A DNA stretch of 64,000 nucleotides from Hyphomicrobium sp. 99 (GTDB lineage: Bacteria; Pseudomonadota; Alphaproteobacteria; Rhizobiales; Hyphomicrobiaceae), in contig NZ_KQ031382.1 in the NCBI RefSeq assembly GCF_000384335.2, positions 2,046,001-2,110,000 of the forward strand, in the 5' to 3' direction. Under the pieces are notes generated by a model. It worked only from the letters and a program-made list of their open reading frames with translations. It searched no databases and was not told the origin of the DNA. Made by a program: the position numbers and the translations under genes. Below, piece by piece: positions 42,579-64,000 of this stretch. Position 1 is the stretch's first letter; every line of letters begins with the position of its first letter.

Positions 42579-42631
42579 GCGCTTGGCGGCCGGCTCGCGG
42601 AACGCGAGTCGCCAAGCGCCAACCAAAGAAT
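42579..42631 (+). repeat. Palindromic element, copy A
   Basis: Arms GCGCTTGGCG (42579-42588) and CGCCAAGCGC (42610-42619) pair perfectly, 10 of 10. Inside: GCCGG, inner stem CTCGCG-GAA-CGCGAG (42594-42608), then T. An A-rich tail CAACCAAAGAA follows. The core is shared with seven other copies in this window. Confidence 0.85.
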
Positions 42632-42634
42632 TCT

Positions 42635-42686
42635 GCGCCCGGCGGCCGGCTCGCGGAACGCGAGTCGACGGGCGCCAAGAAAAAAG
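42635..42686 (+). repeat. Palindromic element, copy B
   Basis: Arms GCGCCCGGCG (42635-42644) and CGACGGGCGC (42666-42675), 9 of 10 paired, around the same GCCGG + CTCGCG-GAA-CGCGAG + T core. The tail is CAAGAAAAAA. It is bracketed by two identical 17-bp sequences, 42611-42627 and 42686-42702, the second ending 1 bp before the NAD kinase stop codon. Confidence 0.82.
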
Positions 42687-56769: not shown

Positions 56770-57010
56770 TCCGAACAGTGATCATTTGTGTTCAAGCTAT
56801 CCACCAGCGTCAATCGATCTGTCCAAGAAGCTTTGCCGCTTTACCCAACGTTAAGCACTCCCGGACACTACTTCATCGATTGCGATGATTCTGGCGGCCG
56901 CAGCGCATTCACGCCACCATTCAGTATGCGTCCCAATTTTGTGGCGGGAGCCTTCAAGGCGGGAGTGCCGCATGGGCGGGCAGGTTGCCCGCGCCTTCGG
57001 GGGACCATGC

Positions 57011-57214
57011 ATGGCGAGGATCATCGCATTCAAGACGGCACCGAAGCCGACAGCGGCATCGGTGCTCGCCGCATACGGAGCAGGACAATCAGCCGAGATC
57101 GTGCTTTTCCCAGGTGTGCGCTACGAGCGCCACGACGAGGAGAAAGGCAAGAAGCCGAAGAAAACGCGACGCCGACGAGATAGGCTCGAGATCGACAGCG
57201 AAACGAGATCCTAA
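57011..57214 (+). CDS. Small basic protein, 67 aa
   Basis: 67 residues from ATG 57011, starting MARIIAFKTAPKPTA, with a central AEIVLFPGVRYERHDEE and a Lys/Arg-rich C-terminus. I recall short proteins with an AEI-LFPGVRYER core in rhizobia; no function is known. The tail after residue ~45 is poorly conserved in character. The first palindromic element copy C begins 10 bp downstream. Confidence 0.6.
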   Translation: MARIIAFKTAPKPTAASVLAAYGAGQSAEIVLFPGVRYERHDEEKGKKPKKTRRRRDRLEIDSETRS

Positions 57215-57223
57215 CATCCTTAC

Positions 57224-57274
57224 GTCGCGTGCGGCCGGCTCCCCGAAGGGGAGTCGCACGCGACAATCAAAAAA
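57224..57274 (+). repeat. Palindromic element, copy C
   Basis: Arms GTCGCGTGCG (57224-57233) and CGCACGCGAC (57255-57264), 10 of 10 paired; GCCGG, inner stem CTCCCC-GAA-GGGGAG (57239-57253), T; tail AATCAAAAAA. Confidence 0.85.
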
Positions 57275-57298
57275 TCGCGTGCGGGCGGTCACCGACAC

Positions 57299-57400
57299 TG
57301 TCATCCTGGGCGAGCCCTTTGCGAGACCCGGGACCCAGAATTCGCATTCTGCATGGTGGCATGGGTCCCGGCTCTTCGCTTCGCTGCGGCCGGGATGACA
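57299..57400. repeat. 102-bp element with terminal inverted repeats
   Basis: Ends TGTCATCCTGG and CCGGGATGACA form an 11-bp terminal inverted repeat with one mismatch. Inside, GACCCGGGACCCA and TGGGTCCCGG make a second stem. It is a MITE-like sequence similar in its ends to the 130-bp elements at 61.9 and 62.6 kb. It lies between palindromic element copies C and D. Confidence 0.65.
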
Positions 57401-57410
57401 GGGGGCGAGC

Positions 57411-57461
57411 GTCGCGTGCGGCCGGCTCCCCGAAGGGGAGTCGCACGCGACAAACAAAAAG
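57411..57461 (+). repeat. Palindromic element, copy D
   Basis: Arms GTCGCGTGCG (57411-57420) and CGCACGCGAC (57442-57451), perfectly paired; same core as copy C (identical through 41 bp); tail AAACAAAAAG. It ends 5 bp before the stop codon of the minus-strand DUF1254-like gene. Confidence 0.85.
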
Positions 57462-61822: not shown

Positions 61823-61929
61823 CGGCCGAGCCGCCGCACCACATATCGCGGTCTGTTGCTTCGCGCGCCTGCCATCCCGAAGTCAGCGAAGACCGCGCGC
61901 GAAGTTCCGAAGTTCCCGCACCATTCACC

Positions 61930-62059
61930 GTCATCCCGGCGCAGGCCGGGATCCATGCAAGCCTCCGCATGCGTTCTCGCGCGAGCGGCATCGTCCGCGC
62001 AGCACATTCGCTTCGCCGTCGCTGATACGTGTCTGGTTGCCGGCCTGCGCCGGCATGAC
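61930..62059. repeat. 130-bp MITE-like element, left copy
   Basis: 20-bp terminal inverted repeats, GTCATCCCGGCGCAGGCCGG at 61930-61949 and its near-complement at 62040-62059 (one mismatch). About 96% identical to 62623-62752 (about five differences); similarity extends about 18 bp further right to 62077. It occupies most of the 331-bp gap between the YcgN-type and GIY-YIG genes. Confidence 0.85.
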
Positions 62060-62153
62060 GGTGGTTGAGGCGAGCGCGAAGGTACGTTCGCCCAAAGAAG
62101 AGAATCGTAGAAAATGCTCATACAGCGCGAAACAAGAAGTGGGGGGAAGTACA

Positions 62154-62594: not shown

Positions 62595-62622
62595 GTGCGA
62601 GGAAGCGGTTCCTCCACCCTCT

Positions 62623-62752
62623 GTCATCCCGGCGCAGGCCGGGATCCATGCAAGCCTCCGCATGCGTTCTCGCGCGAGCGGCATCGTCCGCGCAGCACAT
62701 TCGCTCCGCCCTCGCTGATACTTGTCTGGTTGCCGGCCTTCGCCGGCATGAC
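62623..62752. repeat. 130-bp MITE-like element, right copy
   Basis: Same orientation as the copy at 61930-62059, with 20-bp terminal inverted repeats at 62623-62642 and 62733-62752. Differences are limited to a few substitutions (such as CTCCGCCCTCG for CTTCGCCGTCG). The 18 bp following both copies also match. Confidence 0.85.
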
Positions 62753-63030
62753 GGTGGTTGAGGCGAGCGCTGAACTCCGACAACGAAAAATATCAGAGCA
62801 AACTTATCCTCGCTCTGCGGCGCGGGTTTACAATCGGAAAGTTTGGGCTCTGAACTCTCATTTTACATATAAAAATCAATATGTTGCATGATTTTTCCAG
62901 TTGACAGCGTAACGCTCTTCGGGTAGTTTTTTGTATAACGCGGAAAGTGTGAGAGGCCGGCGAGACGGCCTCGGGGCTGCAATGTCGGCGCGTCGCGTTC
63001 CAAGCTAAATTTTCCAAAAAGGCAGTGTGC
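62753..63030. promoter_or_regulatory. AT-rich leader before the packaging genes
   Basis: 278 bp with no supported gene. The stretch 62857-62945 is unusually AT-rich for this genome, with a TTGACA-like element about 62901-62906 and TATAAC about 62933-62938; their spacing is longer than the optimum, so a promoter is only suggested. Such AT-rich leaders are common before horizontally acquired or silenced genes. Confidence 0.35.
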
Positions 63031-63534
63031 ATGGCAGCGGCTTCGACGGCGCGGCGAACCCCTACGCGTGGCCGCCGCGAGACGAAGGCTGCCAAACCGG
63101 GCGAGCCGGAATCCGAGGACGAAAGCTCGGCGCCGAAGTCGAAGCCGATCGCGAAGTCCGCCGCTTCGACGGCGAAGCCAAATTCCAAAGGGGGCGTCAC
63201 GGCAAAGTCCGCTCCCGCGAAACGAACGAGCGCGAAGCCGAATGTCCTCGTTCAGCGCGTCTACAACACGATCGATGGCGAACTGACGAAGCTCGAGAAG
63301 CAGAAGGGGCTCACCTCGCAGGATCGCGAGCGGGCATCCCGCGCACTGTCGCAGATGGTCAACGCACTGGAGAAAGCTGTTGAGATGCAACGCGTGATGA
63401 CGAAGCGGAAGTCAACGGGAGGTGACGCCAAGAGCAAGGAGGCGCTAGCCCATGCGGAAGACCTACGCCGCGAAATTGCGGAACGTCTTGAACGCCTCAA
63501 TCGCAAACGGTCGCCTCAGCGAAGTTCTGAATGA
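63031..63534 (+). CDS. Putative small terminase of a gene-transfer-agent/phage cluster
   Basis: 167 residues from ATG 63031. A basic, Ala/Lys/Ser-rich disordered half is followed by a helical C-terminal half: VLVQRVYNTIDGELTKLEKQ, then TSQDRERASRALSQMVNALE, then KAVEMQRVM. Placement directly before the large terminase, overlapping it by 83 nt, suggests the small terminase (gp1-like of gene transfer agents), which recognises DNA. Sequence support for the small-terminase call alone is weak. Confidence 0.55.
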   Translation: MAAASTARRTPTRGRRETKAAKPGEPESEDESSAPKSKPIAKSAASTAKPNSKGGVTAKSAPAKRTSAKPNVLVQRVYNTIDGELTKLEKQKGLTSQDRERASRALSQMVNALEKAVEMQRVMTKRKSTGGDAKSKEALAHAEDLRREIAERLERLNRKRSPQRSSE

Positions 63535-64000
63535 ACTGAGCGCGGACGAACTCGAGTTCATCTCTCACGATTGGGAACTGTGGGCGCGAGACGAGCAACT
63601 TGCGCCCGTATTGATTGGCGCTTCCGACTCGCGTTCCGCGAGCCGGCCGGAAGCGCCGGGCTTGTTGGACGAGCCTCGCGCAACATCGAGCGCACCCGGC
63701 GGCCGGCTCCCCGCAGGGGAGTCTCCGGGTGCAAACAAACAATGGCGTGTGTGGTTGCTGCTTGGCGGCCGCGGATCTGGAAAGACCCGCGCCGGTGCGG
63801 AGTGGGTGCGCAGCCTCGCACTCTCCGAGCCGCCGGACGACGCAACATCCCCGCACACGGCGGCCGGCTCCCCGCAGGGGAGTCGCCGTGAGCAAACAAA
63901 AAACTCGGACGATGCAACAAGCCCGCGCGCTACGGCCGGCTCGCGGAACGCGAGTCGCAGCGCGCCAACAATAAGAATCGCGCTGGTGGGCAAAACACTC
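63452..64000 (+). CDS. Large terminase (GTA/phage-like) with in-frame palindromic insertions; 3' end outside window
   Basis: 183 codons from ATG 63452 (AAGGAGG about 10 nt upstream) run open to the window end. The ATPase motif is clear: WRVWLLLGGRGSGKTRAGAE at about residues 98-117, and RIALVGKTL near the end fits the next conserved strand. Between the N-terminal helix (LNELSADELEFISHDWELWA) and the Walker A strand, and again between Walker A and RIALVGK, the protein is expanded by residues encoded by palindromic elements E, F, G and H. All four keep the frame. Whether the enzyme stays active is unknown. Confidence 0.8.
   Translation, partial: MRKTYAAKLRNVLNASIANGRLSEVLNELSADELEFISHDWELWARDEQLAPVLIGASDSRSASRPEAPGLLDEPRATSSAPGGRLPAGESPGANKQWRVWLLLGGRGSGKTRAGAEWVRSLALSEPPDDATSPHTAAGSPQGSRREQTKNSDDATSPRATAGSRNASRSAPTIRIALVGKTL
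63607..63668 (-). repeat. Palindromic element, copy E (inverted, in-frame in terminase)
   Basis: On the plus strand: GGCGCTTCCG (63617-63626), A, CTCGCG-TTC-CGCGAG (63628-63642), CCGGC, CGGAAGCGCC (63648-63657). Arms pair perfectly. The tail on the left reads AATCAATAC on the complement strand, and the complement of the right flank has CCAACAAGCCC. It encodes GASDSRSASRPEAP in the terminase frame. Confidence 0.85.
63692..63742 (+). repeat. Palindromic element, copy F (in-frame in terminase)
   Basis: Arms GCACCCGGCG (63692-63701) and CTCCGGGTGC (63723-63732), 9 of 10 paired; GCCGG, CTCCCC-GCA-GGGGAG (63707-63721), T; tail AAACAAACAA. It encodes APGGRLPAGESPGANKQ and is followed at once by the Walker A strand. 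Confidence 0.85.
63853..63903 (+). repeat. Palindromic element, copy G (in-frame in terminase)
   Basis: Arms GCACACGGCG (63853-63862) and CGCCGTGAGC (63884-63893), 9 of 10 paired; GCCGG, CTCCCC-GCA-GGGGAG (63868-63882), T; tail AAACAAAAAA. It encodes HTAAGSPQGSRREQTKN, read in a different phase from copy F. Confidence 0.85.
63925..63975 (+). repeat. Palindromic element, copy H (in-frame in terminase)
   Basis: Arms GCGCGCTACG (63925-63934) and CGCAGCGCGC (63956-63965), 9 of 10 paired; GCCGG, CTCGCG-GAA-CGCGAG (63940-63954), T; tail CAACAATAAG. It encodes RATAGSRNASRSAPT just before RIALVGK. Confidence 0.85.

Follow-up and report, generated by a model that had tools for sequence, protein, structure and literature searches.

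Rickettsia palindromic elements (RPE-1, RPE-4 and RPE-6) are many-copy palindromes that are tolerated inside unrelated protein genes, and RPE-4 and RPE-6 have been filed under the CGTC REPs (PMC3733652, available sections). The CGTC REPs of Alphaproteobacteria are described there as short hairpins with a stem of 8–9 bp, a loop of 4–5 nt, an unpaired CGTC tag and a CCA tail, which have no known transposase, lie mostly between genes near 3' ends and occur sometimes in genes, including uvrA and those of tRNA synthetases (PMC3733652, available sections). Inverted repeats kept inside protein genes are also reported from the mitochondria of nematomorphs, where, going by the accessible part of that paper, they apparently form no dispersed family with a conserved core (PMC6649704). 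GTAG REPs, which go with RAYT, are asymmetric hairpin repeats as well, some of them in genes.

Here we describe a short palindromic element that recurs in the genomes of Hyphomicrobium, a free-living budding genus. Like the RPEs, it lies in frame inside unrelated protein genes for which insert-free orthologs exist. It differs from them in its host group, in having variable complementary arms on a fixed core and an A-rich tail, in being mostly intergenic and in having one prevailing chromosome orientation; this distinction is drawn from descriptions of the RPEs, and a literature search on RPE structure returned nothing of use. Compared with the CGTC REPs, the element has stems of 10 and 6–7 bp with a bulge, a 3-nt loop, no tag and an A-rich tail, so that neither the tag and CCA tail nor the stem and loop sizes of that class are found; CGTC-like repeats coexist with it in the same genome. 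It is set apart from GTAG REPs and REPINs by the lack of a GTAG tag and of matches to their transposase family in Hyphomicrobium (see below).

The first-pass annotation of this DNA had suggested that the element might be undescribed. This stands for the family, which is new as far as searched: titles and the beginnings of abstracts on Hyphomicrobium palindromes and GC skew held no description of it, and a search for four core sequences found no paper that contains one. It does not stand for the kind, since palindromes translated in genes, including in-gene REPs of alphaproteobacteria, are already known (PMC3733652, available sections). Distinctive for this family are its free-but-paired arms and its prevailing orientation, and with it in-frame palindromic insertion is extended to Hyphomicrobium, by a family without a visible transposase.

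Element copies in a large terminase gene

The window analysed is the whole 64,000-nt stretch C3:2046001-2110000 of a 4.11 Mb genome (G000, the window's own genome). It had been proposed that four copies of one palindromic repeat, three direct and one inverted, lie within the first 549 bp of a large terminase gene and are all coding. Each part of this proposal was borne out. The host protein matches both Pfam terminase domains (ATPase and nuclease), exact core matches place one copy on the minus and three on the plus strand, and the reading frame that starts at 63452 has no stop within the window and continues beyond it to a complete protein of 526 aa. The four peptides quoted for the copies are correct on translation of this frame. 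The features are as follows.

63031–63534, plus strand: ORF upstream of and overlapping TerL, in the place of GTA gene 1 (named from position only)
63452–64000, plus strand: 5' part of TerL, the GTA large terminase (PF03237, PF17289); 526 aa in full, frame end at C3:2111029 in the adjoining stretch
63607–63657, minus strand: element E in linker 1; hairpin 63617-63657, tail 63607-63616; antisense reading GASDSRSASRPEAP; DNA fold z -5.5
63692–63742, plus strand: element F in linker 1; hairpin 63692-63732, then tail; peptide APGGRLPAGESPGANK
63853–63903, plus strand: element G in linker 2; hairpin 63853-63893, then tail; peptide HTAAGSPQGSRREQTK
63925–63975, plus strand: element H in linker 2; hairpin 63925-63965, then tail; peptide RATAGSRNASRSAPT

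The ORFs 3' of the terminase resemble a gene transfer agent cluster; they were named by eye, and the portal was confirmed in the relative G008. No paper on a GTA terminase of Hyphomicrobium turned up in a literature search, and the terminase had no match by sequence among solved structures. Upstream of the gene, the window also holds a different repeat, in two 157-bp copies that are 95% identical (61921-62077 and 62614-62770) and whose stem, CGTCATCCCGG...CCGGGATCC, is CGTC-REP-like.

Structure of the element and pairing of its arms

A 24-nt core occurs in eight mismatch-free copies in the window (starts 42587+, 42643+, 57232+, 57419+, 63626-, 63700+, 63861+ and 63933+), as against a mean of 0.07 and at most 1 in shuffled sequence. 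Allowing up to three mismatches, the whole genome holds 94 core matches, compared with 8 for a reversed-pattern control. Palindromes could in principle arise by chance from the GC-richness of coding sequence, with no element involved, but the excess of exact copies in the window and the genome control refute this explanation, to which we give practically no chance. Likewise, a known Rfam RNA was rejected, a tRNA being the sole match above gathering score within the window.

The element is an asymmetric hairpin. It has an outer stem of 10 bp, an inner stem of 6–7 bp with a 3-nt loop, and a tail that is A-rich across about ten bases; a conserved bulge, approximately GCCG, lies on the 5' side. 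When the four terminase copies were folded as DNA, the same order of outer stem, 5' bulge, inner stem and 3-nt loop was obtained. Core, loop and tail are conserved, whereas the outer arms are variable yet complementary, even at one gene site. The outer 10-bp arms of the eight window copies differ but pair, and over the whole structure 96.9% of the pairs are standard (71.9% in shuffles), with 30 cells changed on both sides (10.8 in shuffles). Of 351 copies, 159 are open in all six frames, which is only slightly above the 117–143 seen in shuffles.

The same pattern was seen in a larger collection of 239 sequences (3.02 Mb in total, with 845 loose copies, a figure that counts overlapping loci and also 7 from unrelated organisms). 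Here, 485 distinct 41-nt copies, in a set restricted to those with 7 or more of 10 pairs, carried 288 different 5' arms. Among exact-core copies taken with no pairing filter, 7 or more of the 8 outer Watson-Crick pairs were formed in 232 of 287, compared with 29 when partners were shuffled, and 140 distinct 8-nt arms were present. Thirteen directed comparisons of occupied orthologous sites, which include single pairs seen twice (L093 and L238 are of one genome, L217 and L275 of one assembly), comprised five with identical arms, four with both arms changed and paired at 9/10 or better, three paired below 9/10 and one changed on one arm only. At the site of element F in the terminase, nine sense copies had 98.6% pairing and 24 cells changed on both sides. 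These few orthologous comparisons, together with the terminase site, show a concerted change of the two arms at one site.

Terminase linkers compared with homologs

The four copies had been placed in two linkers in which an insertion might be tolerated. To read these linkers, 120 homologs listed of 8000 found were used; in 13 of the 120 neither linker could be read, and in others just one could. Among those listed, element-free homologs have a linker 1 mostly of 8–14 aa (two of 21 aa) and a linker 2 of 9–15 aa, for example LAPEGDWR and EEAAGGVSNGKDPA, while carriers have up to 87 aa in linker 1 and up to 69 aa in linker 2. In an AlphaFold model of a 514-aa form (mean pLDDT 77), pLDDT falls below 50 at 44-82 and 118-157, which are the two linkers, and at 507-514, the last eight residues. 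The linkers are accordingly short where the element is absent and disordered in the model, consistent with the tolerance proposed. Element-free homologs with the same residues at these positions would have spoken against insertion, but those listed lack these residues and have short linkers.

Each unit had also been given as 51 bp, which is divisible by 3. In the terminase this length holds, as linker 1 has 51 residues in P0006 and 34 in P0024, and the 17 extra residues lie where P0006 has the element E peptide. As a fixed length it does not hold elsewhere, where tandem copies are 53–54 bp apart and glyQ gains a net 14 residues from its copy. When 11 terminase genes were aligned with their DNA, the elements fell in these two linkers, and their arms frequently differed. 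In P0036, P0038, P0051, P0052 and P0108 the same linkers are filled by other repeat-like peptides (VIPGEPSRETRDP..., LGERVGVRG...), and several repeat families thus seem to use them as landing sites.

Copies in ileS and other genes

In a loose set of elements (up to 4 mismatches), 291 of 804 copies lay in genes, mostly falsely as judged by their peptides, and this set was replaced by a strict, deduplicated one. By codon score, 36 of the 336 strict unique copies are interior to coding sequence, compared with 2123 of 4000 random positions under the same score. The frames used are mostly two of the six, sense frame 0 with 16 of the 36 in-gene copies and antisense frame 2 with 13 (29 together), and these two give Gly/Pro/Ser-rich hydrophilic peptides such as APSGRLPAGES and APGDSPAGSRPPGA. 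An NCBIfam scan of ten in-gene host proteins identified GlyQ, IleS (four loci), UvrA, MazG, TrmB, a phage portal and a weakly matched methyltransferase. A Pfam search of six further in-gene ORFs found no family, and for this reason some of the 36 cases may not be genes. The UvrA copy lies inside the gene at L228:6614-7999 (+), and uvrA is likewise interrupted by unrelated REPs in other bacteria (PMC3733652, available sections).

Exactly one ileS above cut-off was found in each of seven Hyphomicrobium genomes. The only ileS of the window's genome carries one translated copy and no stop, as does that of G007; the ileS genes of G001 and G008 have core matches inside by position alone, and that of G018 has no core match inside among the matches listed. 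Across six ileS sequences the element has three landing places, the middle of which holds an antisense copy in L247 and sense copies in three others. At this middle place, G007 and L238 share the same core and have different arms, GCGCTTGGCG and GCGTCGGGCG, each perfectly paired. The IleRS of Hyphomicrobium sp. MC1 has an element-spanning segment around MDKPLSALGGRLPEGESPSANKR. A single ileS at L247:588-4121 (-) has four element copies at the three places within an open frame of 1178 codons.

Estimates of dN/dS were 0.08-0.10 for the terminase outside its linkers and 0.05-0.10 for ileS; judged from these ratios, both genes are under purifying selection. Copies confined to pseudogenes would have told against tolerated insertion. 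This is not what was found: a pseudogene reading of the terminase and ileS copies is ruled out by the stop-free copy in the sole ileS of the genome and by the low dN/dS. Given the open frames, the copies are probably translated within their host proteins. The two best-studied hosts, terminase and ileS, take copies in surface-like linkers or loops, and the terminase linkers and the three ileS places are recurrent landing sites. With arms that differ and are perfectly paired in the same loop of one essential enzyme, it becomes possible to ask whether selection or template switching keeps them so.

Distribution and gene context

A model of the element had 112 matches in the window's own genome, a number that is likely a lower bound because 150 of 1425 first-look candidates were scored; the GTA cluster, over roughly 9.2 kb, accounts for 14 of the 112. 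A genome-by-genome search with the model, using stricter filters and 90 candidates per genome, found matches in 22/22 Hyphomicrobium genomes (this one included), 6/14 genomes of other genera of Hyphomicrobiaceae and 0/24 of other families of the order. Among 75 other genomes of the class, five had one or two two-mismatch hits each, no more than a control pattern. An exact-core scan of named genomes gave at least 120 loci; among the matches listed, 91 were of Hyphomicrobium or Hyphomicrobiaceae, 22 had broader alphaproteobacterial or proteobacterial titles and 7 were of unrelated organisms.

In the genome, in-gene copies exist but most are intergenic. In stretches of the own genome, 10 of 71 copies lie inside gene calls and 61 between them, a count in which density is inflated, since half of the 40 stretches were picked for holding elements. 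The 61 intergenic copies fall in convergent (26), codirectional plus (24), codirectional minus (2) and divergent (9) gaps, where the background gaps number 63, 177, 101 and 114, respectively. Four of the window's copies are intergenic.

42579–42629, plus strand: core match between convergent gene calls
42635–42685, plus strand: core match in tandem with the preceding copy
57224–57274, plus strand: copy between convergent gene calls, starting 10 bp past a 109-aa ORF (56885-57214) that is uncounted in the gene calls
57411–57461, plus strand: copy with 18 bp between its hairpin and the convergent gene called downstream of it

The last two, which are nearly identical, flank another inverted repeat (at about 57300-57400, by eye) between convergent gene calls (57224-57461).

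Insertion and maintenance

At several loci the element is an insert of about 40–60 bp at a site that is empty in relatives, as in the G000 copy near 2422402 compared with G003, in L310 compared with L179 of G008, and in L097 of G019 compared with five loci. These alignments showed no clear target-site duplication, such as a MITE would have, the relatives being too distant for base-exact insertion ends. Taken together, the comparisons show a dispersed family that has inserted relative to relatives and that lies in frame within loops of genes under selection.

Some of the evidence would also suit a hairpin that acts as an RNA or DNA signal under selection, for instance as an mRNA 3'-end stabiliser or a protein-binding site, with the in-gene copies as by-products. 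Convergent gene pairs are preferred by the intergenic copies, covariation is strong even at one site, and the bulge is conserved. However, some orthologous sites are empty in relatives, and orientation tracks the chromosome and not the transcript: between codirectional genes on the minus strand there are only two copies, both of them plus. Moreover, template switching, as argued for RNA hairpins, can alone yield multi-base compensatory changes (PMC8794818, available sections). We regard a functional signal as possible but doubtful. The scarcity of copies in codirectional minus gaps fits a one-strand insertion bias plus removal of antisense copies, on small numbers.

The size, bulged hairpin, dispersal and mostly intergenic position of the element, with some copies in genes, are also those of a REP family (PMC3733652, available sections), which could be moved by a RAYT-like tyrosine transposase. 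Against this, the element has neither a GTAG nor a CGTC tag and its tail is A-rich instead of CCA, and the Y1 (IS200/RAYT) transposase family PF01797 was found in 0/11 Hyphomicrobium genomes, whereas the same search gave matches in 2/3 genomes of other genera and in 5/14 named control genomes. A Y1/RAYT-driven element was rejected on this result, and we consider mobilisation of this kind very unlikely; no mobilising enzyme was found.

The account that we favour, and think probable as a whole, is that these short palindromes, dispersed through genomes of Hyphomicrobiaceae, make up a family not described before, whose members insert and are tolerated in genes. Most surviving copies lie between genes and a minority persist in frame within them, and the peptides that these encode would be functionless and simply tolerated. 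The free-but-paired arms could be kept by template-switch (palindrome-correcting) mutation together with exchange between copies or, alternatively, by selection on the hairpin as the recognition site of a protein. Spread may proceed through single-stranded DNA, as suggested by the asymmetry of the hairpin and its strongly biased orientation.

Orientation and base skew

Insertion and tolerance alone do not explain the uniform orientation of the element, which is the most interesting lead. Among the matches with up to three mismatches in the own genome, 86 are forward and 8 reverse. Outside the GTA cluster, the two replication arms of G000, delimited by parS-like sites at 0.355 Mb and a switch of polar motifs near 2.3 Mb, have counts of 31:1 and 45:4 with the same majority strand. 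The arms of G008 (2:13 and 9:23) also share their majority strand, more weakly, and an orientation that depends on the replichore is contradicted by both genomes. At up to two mismatches, strand counts were 4:47 in G003, 9:36 in G018, 4:34 in G019, 6:59 in G001 and 18:70 in G007, the totals for G001 and G019 being sums over several contigs that are not oriented relative to one another. CGTC-type repeats in the same G000 stretches are biased in one arm only (24:7 and 8:6), compared with 22:3 and 14:2 for the strict core. A literature search found nothing on such an orientation bias of REPs.

The GC skew at four-fold sites, estimated from 14–43 stretches per genome with simple gene picking, was of one sign in the two arms of G000 (-0.037 and -0.111), G007 (+0.145 and +0.049) and G008 (+0.122 and +0.046), and was +0.102 and +0.009 in G003, the latter within error of zero. 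The control G053, which lacks the element and belongs to another family, also has a one-signed skew (-0.066 and -0.083); the element is therefore not what produces the skew. A second control, G073, for which the sampled part was the initial 2.97 Mb of 4.62 Mb, was near zero on both arms (+0.017 and -0.004). In G000, G003, G007 and G008, and in G053, the motifs GGGNAGGG and GCGCTGGG flip between the arms and the sign of the base skew does not.

In SkewDB, some 250 chromosomes are recorded as having very unequal skews, which it calls hard to explain (PMC8941118, available sections), and chromids are a demonstrated case of unidirectional replication (PMC7858055, available sections). Across four alphaproteobacterial orders, most genomes have the usual sign-flipping skew, and Hyphomicrobium is not named in the accessible text of that study (PMC9836097). 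We offer the speculation, to which we give only a small chance, that the Hyphomicrobium chromosome is copied mainly one way: one fork would be launched every time, its counterpart would in many rounds start late or not at all, and the signals for segregation would flip at the terminus all the same. By inserting in one strand at the fork, the element would then record the direction of replication around the whole circle, and its orientation and the non-flipping skew would be one thing. If this were true, it would bear on the asymmetric skews of the SkewDB chromosomes (PMC8941118, available sections).

Unlike the rest of the chromosome, the GTA clusters have copies on mixed strands (10:3 in G000, 7:5 in G008 and 4:6 in G018). 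These hot spots lie at C3:2109602-2118752 in G000, C1:1153351-1163132 in G008 and C1:1898775-1907350 in G018.
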